Shown piece by piece: positions 16,906 through 53,390 of a stretch of 64,000 bases of DNA. Below the pieces are notes generated by a model. The model was not told the DNA's origin, searched no databases, and saw only the letters and a list, made by a program, of their open reading frames with translations. The position numbers were made by a program, and so were the translations under genes. The DNA is from Flavobacterium phragmitis (GTDB lineage Bacteria > Bacteroidota > Bacteroidia > Flavobacteriales > Flavobacteriaceae), in the NCBI RefSeq assembly GCF_900112575.1, contig NZ_FOMH01000002.1, forward strand, positions 496,001 to 560,000, written 5' to 3'. Numbering within the stretch: position 1 is the stretch's first letter; each line of letters begins with the position of its first letter.

Positions 16906-19900
16906 TCAAGGTAAAACCTCAATTTCTAAACCAGAATTCCAATTTCTGTGCTCATTTTCATAATATAAATAAGCTGAAGAAGCAATACCTTTATAGTTGC
17001 CAGGAACAACGGCTTTAAAATCTATATTTACTTTTCTTATTTCTTTGGCGTTTAATTTTCTAAAATAAAACACTAATTCACTTCCGAAAATTTCATAATA
17101 ATCAACTATATTTTTATCGATCAATTCTTTTAACTGCCAAGGTTCTGGTGTTAATCCGCCAGGGATTCCAATTCTTGCAATAGGGTTCGAAACTTCTGAA
17201 AAACTGGTATTTTGCACCTCAACTTCAACTCTCGCCGTTTCGCTAGTTTTTATTTCAGTTTTTAGAGTTTTACTTTTTAAAACTAATTTACAGTCTTTTG
17301 AATTATTAGGTTTATAGCTTTGATATTGAACATACAGCAAATAAGGTATTGGACTTTGCTCTGGAATTTGAATTGAAAAACTATTATTTCCAGAGTTGAC
17401 CTTTAAATCTTTTAAAATTACATTTCCGTTCTTGTCTTTTGAGCTAAGCGCTACCAATTCGTTATTGAGACTCATTACTAGATCCTCAGAAAGTACAGAA
17501 GTAACTCCCATACTAATTTTAGCATATTCAGTAATACATTTTAAAGCCAATGCTGTTGCCTGTGTCGATCCAAATCCATACACTGTTTTTGCTGACTGAA
17601 TGTAATCTAAAACATCAGAAACCTCTTTGGTCAGCTGTTTTTCTTTAAGCAAAGCCAGACCATAAAGCGATACAATTTCCATATTCATCGATTTGCCATA
17701 ACTATGAATAACAGATTGTTGTGCTTTCAAATTTTCGAATCCATTTTTTTTGATCTCGTTTTTTATCAAAACCATTAACTCCTTGTATTGATTTATTTTA
17801 TTCAGATTATACGAAGCCAAAGCCATCAAATTCATTCGGTACAAATCATTGCTTTTCAATGCTTCTTTTAATGCTGCGTCATATTGCTGTTCTATATTCC
17901 CATTTCCTATCTCAGACAAAACATATACGATATAAGCATTATTAACCTCATATCTTATTCCTGAAAAACCATATCTGCCTGGATTTTGTTTAAAACCGCC
18001 TTTGTCGTCTTTTCTCGAGTCAATCCATTTCATTGATCTTTCAATTAATTTCTGGTCAACATTAATGAATTCTTTCATTTCATTAAACTGCAGTAAACCA
18101 TAAACTGTTAATGCTTCATTGCCAGGATTTCCTCCATACCACTCAAATCCACCGTCTTTAGATTCGTAGTTTTTCAACTTCTGATAACCGTTTTCTAAAT
18201 ACTGCATGGCTCTTTTCTTGAATTCTGGAGAAATACTTTTAAATTTCATCAGCTGCATGGCCATGATGTTCGGATAATTGCTGGACGAAACCTGCTCAAA
18301 ACAGCCGTAAGGTTCTCTCATCATGCTTTCTAAACCGTCAAAAATGGATGAAAACGGATTGTAAAACAATTTAAATCCAGTTTCTATAGAACCTGGAATT
18401 GGATCGCTGATAAAAAAATCTTTTTTTTGAGAATTCATTCCAGAAACATCCACATTAGCTGGAAATCCTTTAGTATAAACATCAATTTCTTTTCTAATCT
18501 GGGTCTTATAATTGTCTCCTATTAAATTAATTTCTAACGGAAGTTTTTTTCCTGTTTCGCTTGCAGTAAATGAAACATAAATTGTTTTAGATTCATTGGG
18601 TTTTAAAAATAGGTTTTCTTCTGAGAAATTGATTTTTCGTTTATTAAATGAAACCCCGCATTGTAAATTCAAACCTAAATTAGTGTTGTTTTTCAACCAA
18701 ATCGGAAGCATAATAACATCTTCATTCGAAGCATAAATGGGAACTTTAACATCACTTTGGATCAACTCTTTTACAGCAAAAGCAGTTTCCGATTTTCCTA
18801 AATCTCCTTTATATGAAGTCCCTTCTGCCAGAATTTTAAATGACGTATTATCATCAGAAGTGTAGAATTCAAAAACAGCTTCCCCTTTATTATTGGTTTG
18901 AACAACAGAGTTCCAATAAATACAGCTTCTAAAATCTGTTTTTTTCTCTGTAATTGTAGTTCCATACTTTGGTACATAAAAACCTTCTGCTTCATTAATA
19001 TTTTTTACTTCCGATCTGTTTATATTCTGAAAAGTATAATGATGGCGTTTTCCAACAATTATCTTGCTTCTGTATATTTTATTTTTTGTTGTAACCAGAA
19101 TGACTCCATAAGCACCATTAGATCCGTACAAAGCCGTTGCCGACGCATCTTTCAAAACAGTAACAGATTGAATGGAAGCTGCGGGAAAGCTTCCAAAAAT
19201 CGATGAATTCTCGTTGTTAACATACGGAACTCCATCAATGACAATTAAAGGCTGGCCTCCTGATCTGCTACCATAAACAGAACTCAATCCTCTTATCAAT
19301 ACTTTATCTGCAGAACCGGTCTGTCCTGTAGAAGAAGTTATCTGCAATCCGGTCACTCTGCCATTTAGCGCTGTACTATATATTTCTTGCGCACTAATGG
19401 TCATAACGGAACCCGTAATATCTTTTTTCTTCTGCATTCCGTATCCCACTACTACAACTTCATTTAAAGATTGGTTATCAGAATCTAAAGAAACAGAATT
19501 ACCTGTAACATTTACTTCTTTTTTAAAAGATTCGGCAGTTTCTTTATAATCGTAATTAATGTCTGAAGTCACATTATTAGAAAGTGTATCCTTCATTTTT
19601 AGGAATTCCTGCGCATTGGAAATGGAATTTTTCATTACATACCTGCGATTCTTTTTACCATCGACTATTAAATAGGCCAAATCTGTAAAATGTACTTTGC
19701 TGAATTGAAAATAACCACTAGAATTACTTTTTGTTTCAAATGCTTTTCCTTTGTCCGTAAATAAAAAAACTTTTAAAGTTGCAGGTTTTCCTTTATCATT
19801 TAAAATAAAACCTTCGATACTATTATTTTTTTCAGGTTCTATTTTATTGGTTTCAAGTAACAGTTTCTGAAGGTTCTTTTGATTGAATTTTCTCCATCCA

Positions 19901-21444
19901 TGTGTGTTCAAAAGCAGGTCAATAGCTTCTTCGCGTTCTTCGTTTTTTTTATTTTCATCAAAATAAAACCTTGGTTCATGAATTTTTCCCTTCAGCTCAA
20001 AACCTAAAAGCATCCATGATAAAATATTGTCCTGTTTATCGTCTATATAAGTCAAAAGCTTTGAATCTACTACAGAAACAGAAAGATTGGATGCAATTGG
20101 CAAATTATTTTTATCTTTTGTTATAACTGAAACTTTTACCTTCTCTCTTGGCAGATAGGTATCTTTATCTGTCTTTATTTCTATCTTCAATCCGTCCTGA
20201 TAATTAAGAAAAACGAGTCTTTCTGCCACAATCTGATCTTCCACCATTAGCGAAAAAGACTGAATTCCAACTGGAAAATCTTTTGTTTCTACAGTAATAG
20301 AATTCCAACCCAGTTTTAAACTTACATCTATCGTTTTATAAATCTTAGCTGTATTTCTAACCAACATTTTAGATTGCATGGCTACAGGTGCATAAATATT
20401 TACCACAACATTCTGAGGATTCTTCTGTGTATTAACTACAAAAAGATTTTTTTCTGCTTTGGGAAGCGCTATTTTCTCTGCTGACTGAAAAGGAGAAGTT
20501 ACAACGGCATAATACTGTTTGTTTTCCATGCTTTTTAAAATCAAATTTCCCATTCCGTCATGAATGCTCTTAAATTCACTGATTTTTGTTCCTTTTTCAT
20601 CTTCTATAAAACCTGCAACATCCATTGGAAGTCCAAATTCATTTTTAGCAATAAAAAATAAAGATGATGATTCATTTGCCACTAGATTACCACTTTCTGG
20701 TAAAAACTGCAGATCAATAAAATTCAAATTAATAGGAATCGAACGTGTTACAGATTCTTTGAAATTATCGTAATCCAGCATTACATTTAAAATTCCGTCA
20801 TTTGATGTCAAATCAGCTGGAAGCTTAAAACGTACTACAGCTTTGCCTAAATCATCTGTCTTTCCTTTAAATGAATCTATCTTCTTTCCCGATATGAAAA
20901 TGTCATAAGTAAAATCATAGTTTTTTATCGGCTGGTTTTCCAGATTTTTCAAATCAAAATCGGCCTCGCAAACTTCCCCTCTTCCATAGGCTTTTTTCTT
21001 AAAATCAAGTGTCATTAAAATTCTTGGAGCAACTACTTTTTGCACAAAAAATGTTTTCTCGAATATATTTTCAAGCGTTTGGTTTTGTATCCTGGTATAA
21101 GCTCTAATTTTATACATTCCAGAAACGGCTGTTTCGGGAATTTTATAGGAACCCGCTGCACTTCCATTTTCAATTACATAACATTGAGAGACTATTTTTT
21201 TATTACTGCCATCCAATAAATCAACATAAAGATATTCACTTAAACCTGAAGGACTATTATCTGCTTCGGTAATAAAACCTGTAAAATAAACCGTTTCATT
21301 AGGCGTATAAAGTACATTGTTCAATTGAAGATAAACTTTCTCGGTAACCGATTTTTTGTAAGCAGTATTCCAGTCTTTTTCTGTTTTCTGCGCCCAAGTT
21401 GTTTGAAACAGAACAAACAATACTATATATTTAATATTTTTCAT
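16906..21444 (-). CDS. Alpha-2-macroglobulin family protein with an embedded TonB-receptor plug domain
   Basis: Bacterial alpha-2-macroglobulins trap proteases through a reactive thioester. This 1512-residue protein has a cleavable signal peptide (to about residue 18) and MG domains with the MG2 opening EKVYLQLNNVLYTPNETVYF. A carboxypeptidase-like domain covers about 545-610. A complete TonB-receptor plug then spans about 655-790, with NEVVVVGYGMQKKKDITGS, VLIRGL, QPLIVIDGVPYV, VTVLKDASATALYGSNGAYG and VILVTTK. After the plug comes the A2M domain (FRSCIYWNSVVQTNNKGE), the thioester motif GCFEQ with Cys1048, and the alpha/alpha-toroid and receptor-like domains. It begins four bases after the stop of a TonB receptor that has no plug of its own. 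There is no lipobox. A role in trans-plugging is inference. Confidence 0.88.
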   Translation of the reverse strand: MKNIKYIVLFVLFQTTWAQKTEKDWNTAYKKSVTEKVYLQLNNVLYTPNETVYFTGFITEADNSPSGLSEYLYVDLLDGSNKKIVSQCYVIENGSAAGSYKIPETAVSGMYKIRAYTRIQNQTLENIFEKTFFVQKVVAPRILMTLDFKKKAYGRGEVCEADFDLKNLENQPIKNYDFTYDIFISGKKIDSFKGKTDDLGKAVVRFKLPADLTSNDGILNVMLDYDNFKESVTRSIPINLNFIDLQFLPESGNLVANESSSLFFIAKNEFGLPMDVAGFIEDEKGTKISEFKSIHDGMGNLILKSMENKQYYAVVTSPFQSAEKIALPKAEKNLFVVNTQKNPQNVVVNIYAPVAMQSKMLVRNTAKIYKTIDVSLKLGWNSITVETKDFPVGIQSFSLMVEDQIVAERLVFLNYQDGLKIEIKTDKDTYLPREKVKVSVITKDKNNLPIASNLSVSVVDSKLLTYIDDKQDNILSWMLLGFELKGKIHEPRFYFDENKKNEEREEAIDLLLNTHGWRKFNQKNLQKLLLETNKIEPEKNNSIEGFILNDKGKPATLKVFLFTDKGKAFETKSNSSGYFQFSKVHFTDLAYLIVDGKKNRRYVMKNSISNAQEFLKMKDTLSNNVTSDINYDYKETAESFKKEVNVTGNSVSLDSDNQSLNEVVVVGYGMQKKKDITGSVMTISAQEIYSTALNGRVTGLQITSSTGQTGSADKVLIRGLSSVYGSRSGGQPLIVIDGVPYVNNENSSIFGSFPAASIQSVTVLKDASATALYGSNGAYGVILVTTKNKIYRSKIIVGKRHHYTFQNINRSEVKNINEAEGFYVPKYGTTITEKKTDFRSCIYWNSVVQTNNKGEAVFEFYTSDDNTSFKILAEGTSYKGDLGKSETAFAVKELIQSDVKVPIYASNEDVIMLPIWLKNNTNLGLNLQCGVSFNKRKINFSEENLFLKPNESKTIYVSFTASETGKKLPLEINLIGDNYKTQIRKEIDVYTKGFPANVDVSGMNSQKKDFFISDPIPGSIETGFKLFYNPFSSIFDGLESMMREPYGCFEQVSSSNYPNIMAMQLMKFKSISPEFKKRAMQYLENGYQKLKNYESKDGGFEWYGGNPGNEALTVYGLLQFNEMKEFINVDQKLIERSMKWIDSRKDDKGGFKQNPGRYGFSGIRYEVNNAYIVYVLSEIGNGNIEQQYDAALKEALKSNDLYRMNLMALASYNLNKINQYKELMVLIKNEIKKNGFENLKAQQSVIHSYGKSMNMEIVSLYGLALLKEKQLTKEVSDVLDYIQSAKTVYGFGSTQATALALKCITEYAKISMGVTSVLSEDLVMSLNNELVALSSKDKNGNVILKDLKVNSGNNSFSIQIPEQSPIPYLLYVQYQSYKPNNSKDCKLVLKSKTLKTEIKTSETARVEVEVQNTSFSEVSNPIARIGIPGGLTPEPWQLKELIDKNIVDYYEIFGSELVFYFRKLNAKEIRKVNIDFKAVVPGNYKGIASSAYLYYENEHRNWNSGLEIEVLP

Positions 21445-21448
21445 TTAC

Positions 21449-24214
21449 TTAAAATTTAATAGTTAAAGAAGTTCCAAAACTTCTCATCATAGGCGAATTG
21501 AAATAATCTAAACCATTGGTTTCAATAGAGCTAAACATTGAATTATTACCAAATGCCGATTTGCTTTTGGCTATTACAAAGGCATTATTAACAAAGAGCG
21601 AAATCTTAAAACTGCATATATCGTTATAATCTCTGAAATCTTTTGAATAGGACAAACTAATGGTACTAAGTCTTAAATAGGTGGCGTCTTCGATAGCATC
21701 TTCTGCAACACCATCAATACCATATCGTGCCCAGCGGTTTTGTTCAACTGGAAGATTTACATCATAAAATGAAACAGCTTTTGCGTTTACAGCACCTGCA
21801 GCAGTTACTCCGTCAAAAATATAATTAGCAACATATCGCTGTTCGCCAGTCAAATCAGACTTTCCGTAATAATTTAAAGTCTGCTGTGTACCGTTCCAGA
21901 TTTTTCCGCCTTGACTCCAATCAAAAACAAAATCAAATGTGAATCTTTTATATCTTACAGTATTCGAAAAACCGACTACAAAATCAGGATTTGGATCTCC
22001 CAAAATTTGTGGCTCTGGATTTTTGATAGGAAAGCCATCTGCATCAATTATCATATTCTGATTCGCATCTCTTAAATAGCTGCTTCCGACAATAACTCCC
22101 AGCGGTTGACCTACTATGTAGTTTTTATTGACATCTGCAAAACCAGCAAACGGAATTCTTGTCTGGCTGTTTTCTAAAGCTGTGACTTTATTTCGGTAAT
22201 AAGTGAAATTTAAATTAAAACCGTATGTAAACGACTTTCCTGAATAAATGTTTCGATCGACGCCAAATTCAATTCCGCTTTGTTTATAATTTACTTCTGG
22301 CGACCATTCTGCTGTATTTGAAAACAAAACAGGTACATATAAATTTTCTATCTTTTTATGGTAATAATTAAAACTAAGGTTCCATCTGTAATTTAATCTG
22401 AAATTCAAATCAATAGAACTCATGTCTTCTGTTGTCGCTACTGCATTTTTTTGGGTAATCAATTCGTGATTATTTTGAAGCTGTTTGAATTCATTTACTT
22501 GATAAAACAAAGAATTAAAATTTAAGTTATTATTCTGCAATAAAGGTTCATTTTCTGTATGACCATGTCCTATTTTTATTGACAACTTATCATTAAAAAG
22601 CCTATTTAATTCAGCCGATACAAAGTAGCCTGGAAGGAAATTACTTTTAACTGTTGAAGAATAATTCAAATTTGAACTTGCTTTTAAAACAAGTTCATCA
22701 TAATAAGAAAATATATCCCTAAAAATATAGGAACCGTTTATATTGGTTAAAACTTCAAATCTTTGCTGTGAAATGTCCATTATACTTTGGATATCACTTT
22801 GATAAGGAAAATTATTAATAGTAGAATATCCGCTGAAATAATGTCTTGCCAACGCTCTTTTCTGGAATCTAAAATCTACTTTCGATTCAATAAAGGCTCG
22901 ATAACTAAAAGTATATTTGTATATATCAGAAACTGAAGCGCTCTTAAAATCTTCGGTTCTTTTATTGAAATTTGGTTCTGTTATTCCAGCAGCATAAAAA
23001 CTTTGGCCATTTGTATTTTTGATTTCTGATGACTGAAAAACAGTATTAAAAGTATTCGAAATTTTATTCTTAGAATAAACATGATTAAAATTAAAAGAAT
23101 AGGTTTTACTTTTATTAGTATCTAAATTATTGTGGATTAAGAAGTACGGATTATTTTCTGTTGCTGCATAACTTCTTTGCTGTCCATTTTCTAAAGCTGA
23201 TGCCCATTTATTGTCAAAATGAACTGGCGTAACGGAATTAGCAAAAAAGACTTTGTTCATTCCAAAATTGGCATTTGAAAAATTGTTTTCAAAATTATTA
23301 AACGATAGAGAACCTTCAATTTTACTGTTTTCTGAAGTATTTCTAAAATATTTTAACGATGTGCTAATCTCATTATTTCGCGTATCTGGAACAACAATAT
23401 TTCCTGTTTTGTAAGCAAAATTTACTTTTAAATAATTCCCTTTTGGACTTTCAATCTGAGCATTAAAAACGGTTTTGCTTTCTTCTCCATCTTGATAAAA
23501 ATTATTTGGATTATATCGAGTAAGTGGAGCAGCTGTAGCAGAAAATCTGTTTACTATATCTCCCTGAGGATAATATTGAGAGCTATTTTGAGAATATTGT
23601 AAAGTGTTGACATTTGGTCCCCAACTGAAGATTTCATTCGTTTCAGGCGACTGATAAGTTAATTCTCCGTTAAGACTTCTTCCTTGAGCAAAAAACTGCT
23701 GATACCGAGGAAGTCGGAATGGAGTTGAAACAATATACTCTTGATTTATCTCAAAAGCTGCTTTATGGAGCTGGTATTTATTTTTAGTTTTATAGAAACC
23801 ATCCGGCTGTCTAATTATTTTTACAATTTCCTGACGCTCTAAGTTTGGCAATAGATTTAAGTCAAAATATCCCGAAGATTTTGATTTCTTTACAGAATCT
23901 GAAGGCTTCTTTAACTTTTCAAGATAATCAGAACTGATTATCTGCACCACTCTTCCGTCATTTTTTGTTAGATTAGAATTACCTACTCTGATAATTTTGT
24001 TTTTCATTCCCACCATAGAAATCTGCAGTTGCTCACCACTGGTGGCTTCTATAACGTAATTTCCGTCAAAATCAGATTGAGTACATCTGGATGTACCAAG
24101 AACACAAATCGTCGCCCCCGGAATTGGCATACCATTCTCGTTGATATTCCCTCTGTAAATTGTTTGCGAAAAACTGGCTGTGGTTATAAGAAGTAAGAGT
24201 AATAGTTTTTTCAT
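21449..24214 (-). CDS. TonB-dependent receptor-like outer-membrane barrel lacking a plug domain
   Basis: The start is the ATG giving MKKLLLLLLITTASFSQ; earlier codons precede the signal peptide. Residues about 18-85 are a CarboxypepD_reg-like domain (GMPIPGATICVLGTS, QSDFDGNYVI). The next 100 residues do not show the plug signatures (VDGVP, IESIEVLKG, ALYGSRGANGVI). The sequence passes directly to barrel-type sequence (RLPRYQQFFAQGRSLNGE, IFSWGPNVNTL). The C-terminal half is SusC-like (GQPLGVIVGSSYLRDANQ, PDFVVGFSNTVRYKRFTFDF) and ends in an outer-membrane terminal strand, SFGTSLTIKF. At 921 residues it is about 100 shorter than ordinary SusC proteins. It is the first gene of a tight pair with the plug-bearing macroglobulin. 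Confidence 0.87.
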   Translation of the reverse strand: MKKLLLLLLITTASFSQTIYRGNINENGMPIPGATICVLGTSRCTQSDFDGNYVIEATSGEQLQISMVGMKNKIIRVGNSNLTKNDGRVVQIISSDYLEKLKKPSDSVKKSKSSGYFDLNLLPNLERQEIVKIIRQPDGFYKTKNKYQLHKAAFEINQEYIVSTPFRLPRYQQFFAQGRSLNGELTYQSPETNEIFSWGPNVNTLQYSQNSSQYYPQGDIVNRFSATAAPLTRYNPNNFYQDGEESKTVFNAQIESPKGNYLKVNFAYKTGNIVVPDTRNNEISTSLKYFRNTSENSKIEGSLSFNNFENNFSNANFGMNKVFFANSVTPVHFDNKWASALENGQQRSYAATENNPYFLIHNNLDTNKSKTYSFNFNHVYSKNKISNTFNTVFQSSEIKNTNGQSFYAAGITEPNFNKRTEDFKSASVSDIYKYTFSYRAFIESKVDFRFQKRALARHYFSGYSTINNFPYQSDIQSIMDISQQRFEVLTNINGSYIFRDIFSYYDELVLKASSNLNYSSTVKSNFLPGYFVSAELNRLFNDKLSIKIGHGHTENEPLLQNNNLNFNSLFYQVNEFKQLQNNHELITQKNAVATTEDMSSIDLNFRLNYRWNLSFNYYHKKIENLYVPVLFSNTAEWSPEVNYKQSGIEFGVDRNIYSGKSFTYGFNLNFTYYRNKVTALENSQTRIPFAGFADVNKNYIVGQPLGVIVGSSYLRDANQNMIIDADGFPIKNPEPQILGDPNPDFVVGFSNTVRYKRFTFDFVFDWSQGGKIWNGTQQTLNYYGKSDLTGEQRYVANYIFDGVTAAGAVNAKAVSFYDVNLPVEQNRWARYGIDGVAEDAIEDATYLRLSTISLSYSKDFRDYNDICSFKISLFVNNAFVIAKSKSAFGNNSMFSSIETNGLDYFNSPMMRSFGTSLTIKF

Positions 24215-24367: not shown

Positions 24368-24862
24368 ATGAGCGAAAATCTAGAACAGTCATTTGTTGCG
24401 CAATTGCAGGCAAATCAGAATATAATCCACAAGATTTGTAGATTATATACTGATAATGAAGACGCTCATAAAGATTTATTCCAGGAAATCACTATTCAGC
24501 TTTGGAAAGCTTATCCAAAATTTAGAGGAGACAGCAAATTTTCTACTTGGACGTATCGTGTGGCTTTAAATACCGCGATTACGTTGTACCGCAAAACCAA
24601 AAGAACAATATCTACCGTAGATTATGAAAGTCACCAGCATTTTGTTCGAGATGTTGATTACAACTATGAAGAAGAAGAACAGATAAAATTGATGTATAAG
24701 GCTGTTTACCAGCTTAACGACATCGAAAAAGCATTAGTTTTTATGTATTTAGAAGACAAAGATTATCAAGAAATAGCCGAAACCTTAGGAATCAGCGAAG
24801 TGAATGCACGAGTGAAAATGAACAGAATTAAAGGGAAACTTAAAAAAATACTAAATCCTTAA
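24368..24862 (+). CDS. ECF-type RNA polymerase sigma-70 factor
   Basis: The 164-residue protein has sigma region 2 (AHKDLFQEITIQLWKAYPKF, FSTWTYRVALNTAITLYRK) and region 4 (LNDIEKALVFMYLEDKDYQEIAETLGISE), the two regions of ECF sigma factors. Promoter specificity cannot be read. It is divergent from the receptor and macroglobulin operon, with 153 bases between the start codons. The next gene starts eight bases downstream and encodes a small membrane protein that could act as its anti-sigma factor. No FecR-type protein is present. The receptor lacks the N-terminal STN signalling domain that usually couples TonB receptors to ECF factors. Confidence 0.9.
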   Translation: MSENLEQSFVAQLQANQNIIHKICRLYTDNEDAHKDLFQEITIQLWKAYPKFRGDSKFSTWTYRVALNTAITLYRKTKRTISTVDYESHQHFVRDVDYNYEEEEQIKLMYKAVYQLNDIEKALVFMYLEDKDYQEIAETLGISEVNARVKMNRIKGKLKKILNP

Positions 24863-24870
24863 AAATTATT

Positions 24871-25503
24871 ATGAAAGAACTGGATTTACTAAAAAAAGAC
24901 TGGCAAAAGAACTCGGGTTCTTTTCAACAAATTTCTGAAACTGAAATCTATAAAATGATTCACAGAAAATCATCTTCTATTGTAAAATGGATTTTGATTA
25001 TCAGTATTTTGGAAATTTCATTTTGGACTTTTTCAAATATATTTATCAATACAGATGATGTTCTAAGAAAAATGAACCATCCTGAAATTGTAACAGCTTT
25101 AGAGTTTCTAACCTACTTTAATTATGTTGTAGTTTTAATATTCGTTTATATCTTCTATAAAAATTACAGAACCATTTCGACCACAATAGCTACAAAATCT
25201 TTAATGAGCGCTATTCTAAAGACAAGAAAAACGGTTCAATATTATGTTTGGTACAATTTGGGAATGATTGTAATAACAGCCATTTTAAGCTTTTTTGTTG
25301 CCTTTGTTTACAATCCGGATATGGAGTTTCTTAGAGATAAATTAGCCATGAATGGAAGAGCTATGTTTGTTACAATAGGCATCTTGTTTTTAGTAATTTT
25401 AGGTTTCTTCGGATTGTTCTGGTGTTTCTACAGAATCATTTATGGAACACTTTTGAGAAGATTATATGCAAATTATAAAGAGCTGAAGAAGATAGATTTT
25501 TAA
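24871..25503 (+). CDS. Membrane protein co-transcribed with the ECF sigma factor (putative anti-sigma)
   Basis: I do not recognise a named family. The 210-residue protein has a cytoplasmic N-terminal stretch (MKELDLLKKDWQKNSGSF) of about 35 residues. Four hydrophobic segments follow at about 37-57, 80-100, 125-150 and 165-190, with a basic C-terminal tail. The short N-terminal region before the helices, together with co-transcription (eight-base gap) with the sigma factor, suggests an anti-sigma factor of the membrane type. No zinc-binding ZAS motif was seen, so this is by context only. Confidence 0.7.
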   Translation: MKELDLLKKDWQKNSGSFQQISETEIYKMIHRKSSSIVKWILIISILEISFWTFSNIFINTDDVLRKMNHPEIVTALEFLTYFNYVVVLIFVYIFYKNYRTISTTIATKSLMSAILKTRKTVQYYVWYNLGMIVITAILSFFVAFVYNPDMEFLRDKLAMNGRAMFVTIGILFLVILGFFGLFWCFYRIIYGTLLRRLYANYKELKKIDF

Positions 25504-50144: not shown

Positions 50145-53100
50145 TTAGAACTTAAGATCAATTCCTACTGTGTATGTTTTTACATTTGGATATGCTGCTG
50201 CGTAACCATCTGTTTCAGGATCAATACCATCATATTTGGTAATTGTAAAAAGGTTTTGTCCATCTAATCGAACAGCCGCTCCTTGCATATATTTACCAAA
50301 CCATTTTTTTGGAAGATTATAACTTAATGATACATTTTGCAAACGAACAAATGATGCGTCCTGCAGGAAGAAATCTCCTGAACCATATTGTGTATATCCA
50401 AAATGTGAACCTGGTCGTGTATTGGTAGGATTATCAGGTGTCCATCTATTGTATACATTTCGCACAGCATTTCTTCCATTTTGTGCTACTCCTACCGCTG
50501 TTACCCCATAAGCAAAATCAGTCTGATCTACAATTTTTCGTCCAAACATTCCGTTAAACTGAAAATTCAACTGGAAATTTTTCCAAGTAATTGTATTGTT
50601 TAAACCTGCTACAAAATCAGGGTCAGATGATCCAAGTAAAACAGTATCAGCTTCATCAATTTTTCCATCCGGAGCGCCAGTTCTTAAGAATCTTCCATTT
50701 TCGTCTGTTACAGGATTTCCTGCTGCATCCCTAACAAAACCATTTAAATCTTTAATTTTGATTTGCCCTGGATATAAATCAGGCTGTGCAGGAACAACTT
50801 CTCCAATCTGCATTACACCATCGGCAATTTGACTGTATTGTGCACGAACTGGATCATTATACCCCATGTAAACTGAAGGCTTCCAATCTGGTGCTCTTTC
50901 TTTCCAATTTGTTCTAAATTGTGAATAAGTAAAAGTTGTTCTCCATTTAAGGTCAGGACGATCAATATTTAATGTGCTTAAAGTAAGCTCAATCCCCTTA
51001 CTTTGCGTACTTCCAATATTTGCCCAAACGGTATTTATTTCTTGATAACTGTTAATAGGTTTTACAGTCAGCAAATCTGAAATTACTCTGTCGTATAATT
51101 CAAATGAACCGGAAACCCTTCTATTAAACAACTCGAAATCAACACCTAAATTTTTCTCTGTTGTAGTTTCCCATTTTAAATCAGGATTTTCAAGTCTCGA
51201 AGGAAACACACCAATTAATATTGATTCATCTGGATTTAAATAAGCCGGCTGTGCATAGAAAGCTCCAAAAGCACTTCCTCCAATTGACGCATTACCTGTT
51301 TGTCCGTATCCAAATCTAATTTTAAACTGCGACACATATTTATCTATCGATTTCATGAATGATTCTTGAGAAACATCCCATCCAACGGCAACCGAAGGAA
51401 ATAATCCGTATTTATTGTTCTTTGCAAATACACTTGCACCATCACGACGGATTGTAGACGTCAACATGTATTTATCTTTATACGAATAATTAAATCTTGT
51501 GAAATAGGAAATAAAATTATTTTCAGATTTTGAAGAAGAGGTAACTTTTGTTCCTGCACCAGCATTCATATTATTCCATAAAAAGGCATCTGTAATAAAG
51601 TTGCTGTTTCCTAGTGTTGCGGCTTCAGTTCTATAGGTTTGTTGCGAATAACCTACCATTAAACCAAAAGTATTGTCTTCCATTAATTTTGTAGTATAGT
51701 TTAATGTGAAGTCGAACAAATCATCATTCTTTTCTTGAGAATTAATAGTAGCCTTCCCATTTTCTAATGCTCCGTACAAAGTAGTTCTTGGCAGATAAGT
51801 GCTTCTTTTTGAATTCCCTTGATCAAAACCTGCCTGGAATCTAGCTGTAAGACCTTTAATTGGTTTTATTTCGGCGTAGAAATTTGTTAATGTTCGATCA
51901 ATGACACCTTCATCAGAAATTGTCAAAAGCGAATATGGATTAGGTTCTAAAGCATTGTCTGGGTTTATTGGATAATTACCCAATTCATCAATCGCTAAAA
52001 TTTCAGGGCTTTGCTGTATAGCAGATCTTATGATTCCTGAGTTTTCATATTGATCTCCTCCTAATTGTGAATTTTGATTTTTGATTCGGCTTTTAGTCAT
52101 ATTCATCCCAACATTAATATAATCAGTTAATTTCTGATCGAGGCTAAAATGAAAAGTAGTTCTCTTTAAACCTGAATTTTTAATAACTCCATCTTGATTG
52201 AATAAGTTACCTGATAAAAAATACTTGGTAGATTTTGTTCCTCCGCGAAGTGATAAGTTGTTTTGTTCAATTACACCATTTCTGGTAACTAATCCAAGCC
52301 AATCTGTTCCTTTTCCAGCATTTCTAATTTGTTCATCTGAATAAATTCTTTTATATGGAATCCCGTTTACTGGAGCTGCATTTGCCTCTTCTAAGGTTTT
52401 TGGTGAATATGGATAAACTTTGTTTATAAACTCCCAATTTTCTTTTGCAGCATCATTTCTTAACTGCATCCATTCTTTCAAATCAAGGACTTCATAACTA
52501 TTGTTGTATTTTTGATAGGAATATGAACCAGAGTAGTCAACTCTAACATCACCTTCATTTCCTTTTTTAGTTGTAATCAAGATAACACCATTTGCCGCTC
52601 TGGCTCCATAAATGGCTGTTGAACTTGCATCTTTTAAAACTTCTATAGATTCAATATCATTTGGGTTAAACGAATTTAAAATACTTTGCGTTCCACCATC
52701 ATAACGGTTACCCGTTCCTGGTTGCTCTAAATTTGTAACTGGAAATCCATCAATAACAATTAACGGATCGTTGCTTGCGTTTATAGAGCCTGCACCACGA
52801 ATTTGAATATTAAATCCACCTCCTGGTTGTGCACTATTTTGAGAAATTTGCAAACCGGCAACTTTACCTTGAAGTCCCGTTAAAACAGAAGGTGCTGATG
52901 ATAACACTAAGGCATCTGATTTTACAGACGAAATCGCTCCTAAAACGTTCTTCTTTTTCTGTGTTCCATACCCTACAATCACAATCTCATTAAGACTATT
53001 GGATGAAGGTACCATTGAGACTTTTAAATTTGTGGTATTTGCAATAGCGACTTCTTTTGTCTCATATCCCACATAGGAAAATAATAAAGCTTCTGTTGTG

Positions 53101-53390
53101 GAAGAAACTACAATGGTAAAGCTTCCATCAAAATCAGTTGTAGTTCCTTTTGGAGATCCTTTTGGCACAATCGTTACACCAATCATTGGCTGCCCCAATT
53201 CATCTAAAACCACTCCTTTGATAGTAATATCTGCTTCTGATTTTTTATTCTCTATTGCTAATTTTTCGCTACTGTCTGTAAAAGACCCTGCATTTACTTT
53301 TAATGCTGCTATCAAGAAAAAGACAGTGAGTAATGTCCTTAATTTTATATCCTGATAATTACAGCATAATAACTTGTTACTTTTTTTCAT
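50145..53390 (-). CDS. SusC/RagA TonB-linked outer-membrane transporter
   Basis: The 1081-residue protein has a signal peptide (about 1-35) and a CarboxypepD_reg-like domain (about 57-130). Next comes a full plug (about 135-270: NEIVIVGYGTQKKKNVLGA, PLIVIDGFPV, IESIEVLKDASSTAIYGA, GVILITTKKG), and then a 22-strand barrel ending in TVGIDLKF. It takes oligosaccharides across the outer membrane with TonB energy and the adjacent SusD. Two palindromic LacI-type sites lie 349-387 bases upstream of its start. Its plug, unlike the receptor at 21449-24214, is in its own chain. Confidence 0.94.
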   Translation of the reverse strand: MKKSNKLLCCNYQDIKLRTLLTVFFLIAALKVNAGSFTDSSEKLAIENKKSEADITIKGVVLDELGQPMIGVTIVPKGSPKGTTTDFDGSFTIVVSSTTEALLFSYVGYETKEVAIANTTNLKVSMVPSSNSLNEIVIVGYGTQKKKNVLGAISSVKSDALVLSSAPSVLTGLQGKVAGLQISQNSAQPGGGFNIQIRGAGSINASNDPLIVIDGFPVTNLEQPGTGNRYDGGTQSILNSFNPNDIESIEVLKDASSTAIYGARAANGVILITTKKGNEGDVRVDYSGSYSYQKYNNSYEVLDLKEWMQLRNDAAKENWEFINKVYPYSPKTLEEANAAPVNGIPYKRIYSDEQIRNAGKGTDWLGLVTRNGVIEQNNLSLRGGTKSTKYFLSGNLFNQDGVIKNSGLKRTTFHFSLDQKLTDYINVGMNMTKSRIKNQNSQLGGDQYENSGIIRSAIQQSPEILAIDELGNYPINPDNALEPNPYSLLTISDEGVIDRTLTNFYAEIKPIKGLTARFQAGFDQGNSKRSTYLPRTTLYGALENGKATINSQEKNDDLFDFTLNYTTKLMEDNTFGLMVGYSQQTYRTEAATLGNSNFITDAFLWNNMNAGAGTKVTSSSKSENNFISYFTRFNYSYKDKYMLTSTIRRDGASVFAKNNKYGLFPSVAVGWDVSQESFMKSIDKYVSQFKIRFGYGQTGNASIGGSAFGAFYAQPAYLNPDESILIGVFPSRLENPDLKWETTTEKNLGVDFELFNRRVSGSFELYDRVISDLLTVKPINSYQEINTVWANIGSTQSKGIELTLSTLNIDRPDLKWRTTFTYSQFRTNWKERAPDWKPSVYMGYNDPVRAQYSQIADGVMQIGEVVPAQPDLYPGQIKIKDLNGFVRDAAGNPVTDENGRFLRTGAPDGKIDEADTVLLGSSDPDFVAGLNNTITWKNFQLNFQFNGMFGRKIVDQTDFAYGVTAVGVAQNGRNAVRNVYNRWTPDNPTNTRPGSHFGYTQYGSGDFFLQDASFVRLQNVSLSYNLPKKWFGKYMQGAAVRLDGQNLFTITKYDGIDPETDGYAAAYPNVKTYTVGIDLKF

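Follow-up and report, generated by a model that had tools for sequence, protein, structure and literature searches.

A SusC-like barrel protein that lacks a plug and a thioester macroglobulin that carries one are encoded by adjoining genes of Flavobacterium phragmitis, and between them the two proteins hold the barrel, the plug and the Ton box of one TonB receptor. The parts belong to known families; the pair is best read as a TonB receptor in two pieces, whose plug is carried by a macroglobulin. A fuller reading, in which the plug is part of a thioester trap in the periplasm and in which closure of the barrel in trans, gating by TonB and trapping are all inferred, is in our judgement about evenly poised. 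The genes lie in the window (the whole stretch of 64,000 nucleotides that was analysed), where the list of open reading frames places the macroglobulin gene 4 bases downstream of the barrel gene on the same (-) strand (Table 1).

Table 1. Positions in the window of the two genes and of the features of their proteins.
Feature	Position	Strand	Details and basis
Thioester macroglobulin gene with CPD, Ton box and plug	16906..21444	(-)	1512 aa; ORF, Pfam, NCBIfam
C-terminal receptor-binding/MG domain	16945..17181	(-)	Residues 1422-1500; PF07677 (A2M_recep)
Thioester domain (TED)	17524..18339	(-)	Residues 1036-1307; Pfam
Thioester motif GCFEQ	18292..18306	(-)	Residues 1047-1051, Cys1048; sequence
MG6 second half and MG7 start	18676..18918	(-)	Residues 843-923; PF00207
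Putative alpha'NT trigger segment, K835-F838	18931..18942	(-)	Profile alignment to human A2M R732-F735
TonB receptor plug	19102..19428	(-)	Residues 673-781; PF07715 E 2.2e-14, TIGR04056/TIGR04057, SusC structures by sequence
Ton box LNEVVVVGYG	19438..19467	(-)	Residues 660-669; sequence and column conservation in 74 relatives
CPD domain within macroglobulin	19531..19824	(-)	Residues 541-638, custom HMM; weak PF13620 at 542-584
MG6 first half (end of bait-region domain profile)	20053..20193	(-)	Residues 418-464; weak PF07703, profile 98-138/140, E 0.078
MG2 domain	21073..21339	(-)	Residues 36-124; PF01835
Intergenic gap, barrel/macroglobulin	21445..21448	(.)	4 bases; 1-10 bases in 55/73 paired loci
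Plugless SusC-like barrel gene	21449..24214	(-)	921 aa from ATG; ORF, profiles, fold
Barrel domain, 22-strand SusC type (22 being the figure for SusC barrels generally, not a count on this protein)	21452..23767	(-)	Residues 150-921
Carboxypeptidase-like (CPD) domain of barrel protein	23969..24151	(-)	Residues 22-82; Pfam PF13715

Pfam searches of the barrel protein (E<=10) returned a CarboxypepD_reg-type match and one weak unrelated match. The plug profile PF07715 was absent from it at this threshold and present in the macroglobulin, which is the outcome that the original prediction had expected of a Pfam check. No Ton box was found in the 921 residues of the barrel protein. In NCBIfam searches (E<=1) a single SusC/RagA profile, TIGR04056, was split almost exactly between the two proteins: positions 67-225 matched residues 649-809 of the macroglobulin (E 4e-48) and positions 209-981 matched residues 150-921 of the barrel protein (E 1e-37), together covering positions 67-981. 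The SusC signature TIGR04057 was found in the macroglobulin only. The predicted structure of the barrel protein (pLDDT 89.8, pTM 0.82) aligned from residue 150 with the solved SusC protein BT1763 from residue 210. By its TIGR04056 match and its fold match to SusC structures the protein on its own is a SusC-type barrel, lacking two features of a SusC transporter, a plug and a Ton box in the same chain; the pair taken together has all three. Pfam, NCBIfam, the predicted fold and the structural alignment ruled out that the barrel protein contains a hidden or degenerate plug. These results bear out the original description of a carboxypeptidase-like domain and a SusC-like barrel with no plug, next to a macroglobulin, four bases away, with a complete one. 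They also agree with its argument that the missing and the extra domain are the same, for which the complementary split of TIGR04056 speaks directly, and the plug that would have undone that argument was seen neither by HMM nor in the predicted fold.

An ordinary SusC gene elsewhere in the window (50145-53390) served as a control: its CPD, plug and barrel are encoded as a single chain, and a SusD gene adjoins it. Upstream of the plugless barrel gene, at 24368-25503 of the window, lie divergent genes for an ECF-type sigma factor and a membrane protein with no Pfam match. The same genome also holds, at G000:C10:230606-231178, an open frame of 2186 aa with CPD and plug, twice the usual length of a SusC protein.

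The macroglobulin has MG domains and a TED with a Cys-x-Glu-Gln motif, and is thus an A2M of the thioester type. The GCFEQ motif with Cys1048 was said to be intact, and it proved invariant in the aligned macroglobulin relatives (79/79). PF07703, weak here, was stronger in plugless macroglobulin relatives (E 1e-5 to 4e-3). Ahead of the plug stands LNEVVVVGYG, a type of SusC motif that we take to be the one known as the Ton box. Its columns were conserved among macroglobulins, with L660 in 71/74, E or D662 in 70/74 and V or I663 in 72/74, and a strict Ton-box pattern was found in 49/70 macroglobulins versus 0/70 partner barrels. Structure prediction gave the macroglobulin a native-form A2M fold, with a disordered stretch at 623-678 that precedes and spans the Ton box, and a plug of low confidence (10-residue means of about 38-71).

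The association of plug and plugless barrel extended well beyond this genome. When the C-terminal part of the macroglobulin was used as a protein query, 965 relatives were found, and among the 120 listed every one carried both the plug and the TED by custom HMMs (120/120 for each). The barrel as query found 166 relatives; among the 120 listed, the first 97 had no plug and the last 23 were ordinary SusC proteins with one. The custom plug HMM matched 0/97 of these plugless barrels and 23/23 of the ordinary SusC proteins, indicating that it is sensitive enough to see ordinary plugs. The N-terminal CPD was kept in 84 of the 97 listed plugless barrels (P0121-P0217) and lost in those of Chitinophaga type.

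Eighty-five loci were annotated, comprising the best 80 of 515 relatives in species genomes, the window and four further loci. Seventy-eight of the 85 macroglobulins carried a plug, and 73 of these were paired with a plugless barrel; the remaining five start at the edge of a contig or no more than 88 bases from it. Where a plug-bearing macroglobulin had upstream DNA, a plugless barrel therefore adjoined it in 73/73 cases. All 73 barrels were on the same strand as the macroglobulin, 72 upstream and one downstream, and the gap, 1-10 bases in 55 pairs, had a median of 4, with one pair 1.2 kb apart. None of the seven macroglobulins without a plug had a barrel; five of them are intact (0/5), L106 (a frameshifted fragment) and L134 (at a contig end) being excluded. 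The linkage of plug and barrel is not due to chance. The same split recurred in 73/73 loci with usable upstream DNA, which ruled out that an ordinary SusC gene had been divided artificially by misassembly or a frameshift. The two-gene unit occurs in records of Flavobacteriales, Chitinophagales, Cytophagales, Sphingobacteriales and Bacteroidales.

Neighbour clustering of the 85 loci found no third gene common to more than 16 of them, no recurring SusD-like neighbour of the pair and no recurrent gene for a protease or other cargo. Sigma-factor-like genes formed the most frequent other cluster (16/85 loci). Two barrels had no N-terminal match, that of L138 (Dokdonia pacifica, 802 aa, 4 kb before the macroglobulin) and that of L156:7649-10069 (genome G569, 806 aa), indicating that barrels of this family can shrink further. 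One contig labelled Limnohabitans (Pseudomonadota; L073) groups inside the Flavobacterium clade and is probably a mis-binned metagenome contig. Comparison of distance matrices for plug and barrel gave no plug-specific signal: plug-barrel correlations were r 0.54 (C part) and 0.39 (N part) versus 0.71-0.79 for TED and MGN, and the partial correlations were 0.30 and 0.05 versus 0.44 for MGN.

Whole-genome surveys agreed with the locus data, with which they overlap, some genomes being likely of the same species (e.g. L158 and L085). Of 392 Bacteroidota genomes, five had a long thioester macroglobulin (E<1e-100). Full barrel matches (E<=3.4e-67) occurred in four genomes, exactly those in which the macroglobulin bears a plug; the fifth (G133), whose macroglobulin is plugless, had no barrel match at E<=1e-25. 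The remaining barrel matches in the 392 genomes were ORFs of 973-1138 aa, the length of an ordinary SusC protein, and mostly concerned the C-terminal part. The survey of 395 Flavobacteriaceae genomes detected the macroglobulin in 18, which represent 15 of 203 genera. Searching for the barrel (E<=1e-50) recovered 17 of the same 18, on the same contig, and in the 18th (G569) reading of the locus revealed the 806-aa plugless barrel 4 bases upstream, which the search had missed. All 18 macroglobulin genomes thus have an adjoining barrel, the conserved pairing that a survey had been expected to reveal. No barrel without a macroglobulin was found in the 395 genomes with two candidates scored per genome, a procedure that could miss a lone barrel, as it did the barrel of G569. 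A search for further plugless forms in 95 genomes of the class of G133 returned only G133 itself.

By its own criterion, the original prediction would have been refuted by homologues that routinely occur without the partner gene. Such homologues exist, and to that extent the concern was justified; they are confined, however, to macroglobulins without a full plug, namely a plugless thioester clade and a short, TED-less family with mostly partial plugs. The intact plugless loci (L049, L123, L133, L135 and L142) had no PF07715 match at E<=1, and all keep the CPD at the site. In a tree rooted on the short family they formed one clade (support 96), nested with weak support (61) in a group with twelve plug-bearing forms; one tree of the 85 loci omitted 14 rows (motif filter, two fragments). 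Five independent plug losses were ruled out by this single clade and, as judged from the tree, the absence of plug and barrel in the five is one event. L135, from Saprospiraceae, has a Ton-box-like stretch and the start of a plug (custom HMM, E 6e-3) at the bait site, with no plug and no barrel, and this remnant makes it more likely that plug and barrel were lost together than that both were gained late.

Short macroglobulins of about 800-1200 aa without a TED are common in Bacteroidota. By the custom HMM, 7 of 19 had no plug, 11 a partial plug and 1 a near-full plug, and the plugless barrel was absent beside them in 16/16 fetched loci. In two loci (L063:3077-9359 and L065:5583-11355) the genes for a TonB receptor, a small lipoprotein-like protein and then a short macroglobulin-plug protein form a single run, an arrangement that is possibly another receptor link of the macroglobulin family.

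The original description did not mention that the plug of the long macroglobulins occupies the bait site with a CPD ahead of it, or that the macroglobulin body would then lie on the periplasmic side. The bait region, or anaphylatoxin site, is the trigger of the macroglobulin superfamily. Here the site is filled, in place of a short exposed bait, by CPD, Ton box and plug, a module placed at the bait-region/C3 anaphylatoxin site, with one half of MG6 on either side. A profile of 76 macroglobulins was aligned with human A2M (6tav numbering), in which the family stretch EERTDFR paired with human VRKYF, i.e. with R732 and F735, the corresponding residues here being K835 and F838. R or K at 835 was found in 71/74 and F at 838 in 69/74 plug-bearing relatives, and by this alignment putative equivalents of the alpha'NT trigger residues R732 and F735 are present. 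The module stands about 48 residues ahead of this segment, with linkers of 38-55 or more among the relatives listed. Native A2M structures matched the macroglobulin model across the insert, and the alpha chains of complement C3 and C5 matched it from protein residue 836-839 (model residue 507-510) onward. According to the available part of a study of human A2M, the bait region is P690-T728; the alpha'NT that follows, with R732 and F735, passes through a channel, and the change is set off when this segment withdraws once the bait has been cut, whereas lengthening of the bait does not set it off, a break being needed (PMC9352918). In the model of the present protein, the disordered stretch 623-678 could serve as bait.

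The plug suggests where the macroglobulin may reside. TonB receptor plugs have both ends on the periplasmic side, so the macroglobulin body must hang beneath the barrel if the plug is inserted. Apart from an ordinary signal peptide no signal for secretion was found in the macroglobulin, NCBIfam (E<=1) giving no T9SS C-terminal signal, and a lipobox was found in only 2/74 macroglobulins; the lack of a T9SS tail and the rarity of the lipobox fit a periplasmic protein. A surface-exposed or secreted macroglobulin was rejected on the grounds of these two observations and the plug topology.

We propose that the macroglobulin lies in the periplasm under the SusC-like barrel, where its plug would insert into the barrel and stopper it in trans. 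This step is the best supported and in our view very likely. That the plug closes the barrel in trans and couples the macroglobulin to the outer membrane, as originally suggested, is well supported, if indirectly, by the profile split, the pairing counts (73/73 versus 0/5) and the 18/18 genomes. TonB would then pull the Ton box, shift the plug and open a wide pore, and gating of this kind is probable; TonB remodels the BtuB and FhuA plugs by force, according to the text available (PMC5413942). Unstructured stretches flanking the plug may act as bait and be cut by a protease arriving through the pore, upon which the alpha'NT segment just behind the plug would retract and the thioester would bind the protease covalently. 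The result would be a trap guarding a door, with a wide pore opened by TonB, a protease trap as its stopper and a thioester at its mouth. A role as the gated protease trap or sensor originally suggested is plausible from the bait-site position and the intact thioester, but the bait-triggered trap is the least supported step, with a chance somewhat short of even. Counted against the proposed door guard as a whole are that human A2M is not triggered by a longer bait alone and that no plug-specific distance tie to the barrel was seen. In a variant of the mechanism the pair would include a complement-like protein triggered by force: the plug would have replaced the bait, and TonB, by pulling at the Ton box, would take over the role of the protease cut, working the alpha'NT and firing the thioester as the pore opens. 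We consider this variant unlikely. If true, it would couple inner-membrane energy to the covalent capture of whatever enters, and the pair would provide the first case of a macroglobulin that is switched mechanically and of a TonB receptor built from two proteins.

The same linkage data are consistent with docking alone, in which the plug would be an anchor that does not move: it would close off a scaffold barrel and keep a protease guard of the periplasm attached to the outer membrane, with no transport and no role for TonB. The available text of PMC5764988 describes bacterial macroglobulins as guards against proteases in the periplasm, and neighbour clustering found no recurrent SusD or substrate genes nearby, both in line with such an anchor. 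A conserved Ton box column and a full SusC barrel, however, exceed what an anchor needs, and docking alone seems to us improbable. The barrel might instead let a periplasmic protein out, with the plug-bearing macroglobulin as chaperone, inhibitor or cargo. TonB- and plug-dependent secretion of a protease has a precedent in Oar and PopC of Myxococcus (PMC6434023, in the part available), and the macroglobulin is on the periplasmic side by topology. Export nevertheless fits poorly with the lack of a recurrent protease or other cargo gene in the 85 loci and with a macroglobulin in which only an ordinary signal peptide was found, and we regard it as decidedly unlikely.

Finally, the plug might have a structural role as an insert within the macroglobulin and never enter this barrel, in which case the neighbouring protein would be an open or otherwise closed pore. 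Short relatives with mostly partial plugs and no such barrel are consistent with this, as are distance correlations that were no stronger for plug and barrel than for other parts. Yet gain or loss of a full plug goes with that of the barrel (73/73 versus 0/5 intact loci), and the plugless barrel adjoins full plugs, not partial ones, which leaves an unrelated plug very improbable. A receptor in two pieces, closed in trans by the plug of a periplasmic macroglobulin, remains our preferred reading.

In the open-access literature searched (preprints excluded) we found no description of a macroglobulin with a TonB plug or of the barrel-macroglobulin pair; the database names 'TonB-dependent receptor plug domain-containing protein' and 'MG2 domain-containing protein' exist. 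TonB receptors are defined by a built-in plug and macroglobulins by a bait cut by proteases, and here a single domain departs from the first definition and alters the second. With such a pair a cell might be able to guard, at the entrance itself, a pore of a width that admits proteins, and a free-standing plug would allow plug removal to be studied without altering the barrel.

TonB receptors are by definition a barrel and a plug in one protein, as stated in the available part of PMC6434023. The SusC/RagA transporters BT1763, BT2264 and RagA have plug and Ton box in the same protein as the barrel, whereas here they are in another, and no SusD-like neighbour was seen to recur in the clustering of the 85 loci. 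Oar of Myxococcus xanthus is likewise a CPD-type TonB receptor that handles a protein, PopC, and deletion of its plug lowers barrel stability and function; in contrast to the present pair it is a one-piece receptor, serves secretion and, in the part of the source available, involves no macroglobulin (PMC6434023).

Among macroglobulins, the Type I bacterial A2Ms (E. coli ECAM/YfhM and Salmonella A2M) share the MG domains, a TED with a CXEQ-type thioester and the native-form fold (Foldseek E 1e-33 to 1e-35). Their proposed role, in the available text, is that of a periplasmic guard, with a PBP1c gene as neighbour (PMC5764988). The present protein differs in having about 380 residues (CPD, Ton box and plug) at the bait site, a barrel as its recurrent neighbour (no third gene, PBP1c included, recurred in more than 16/85 loci of the clustering), and no lipobox in 72/74 relatives. 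MagD, a Type II macroglobulin of Pseudomonas aeruginosa, is also periplasmic and in complex with co-encoded membrane partners, but it has no thioester and belongs to a six-gene operon, and the available part of the same source reports no plug or TonB receptor (PMC5764988). The short Bacteroidota macroglobulin-plug proteins share MG domains, CPD and, often, a partial plug at the same site, and by the tree belong to the same family; they differ in having no TED or thioester, in the near-full plug being the exception (1/19) and in lacking the neighbouring plugless barrel. A parallel in placement is offered by complement C3 and C5, which hold a whole folded domain, the anaphylatoxin, in the same place between the MG6 halves. 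In C3 that domain is released by convertase cleavage, whereas the domain here is the plug of a TonB receptor.
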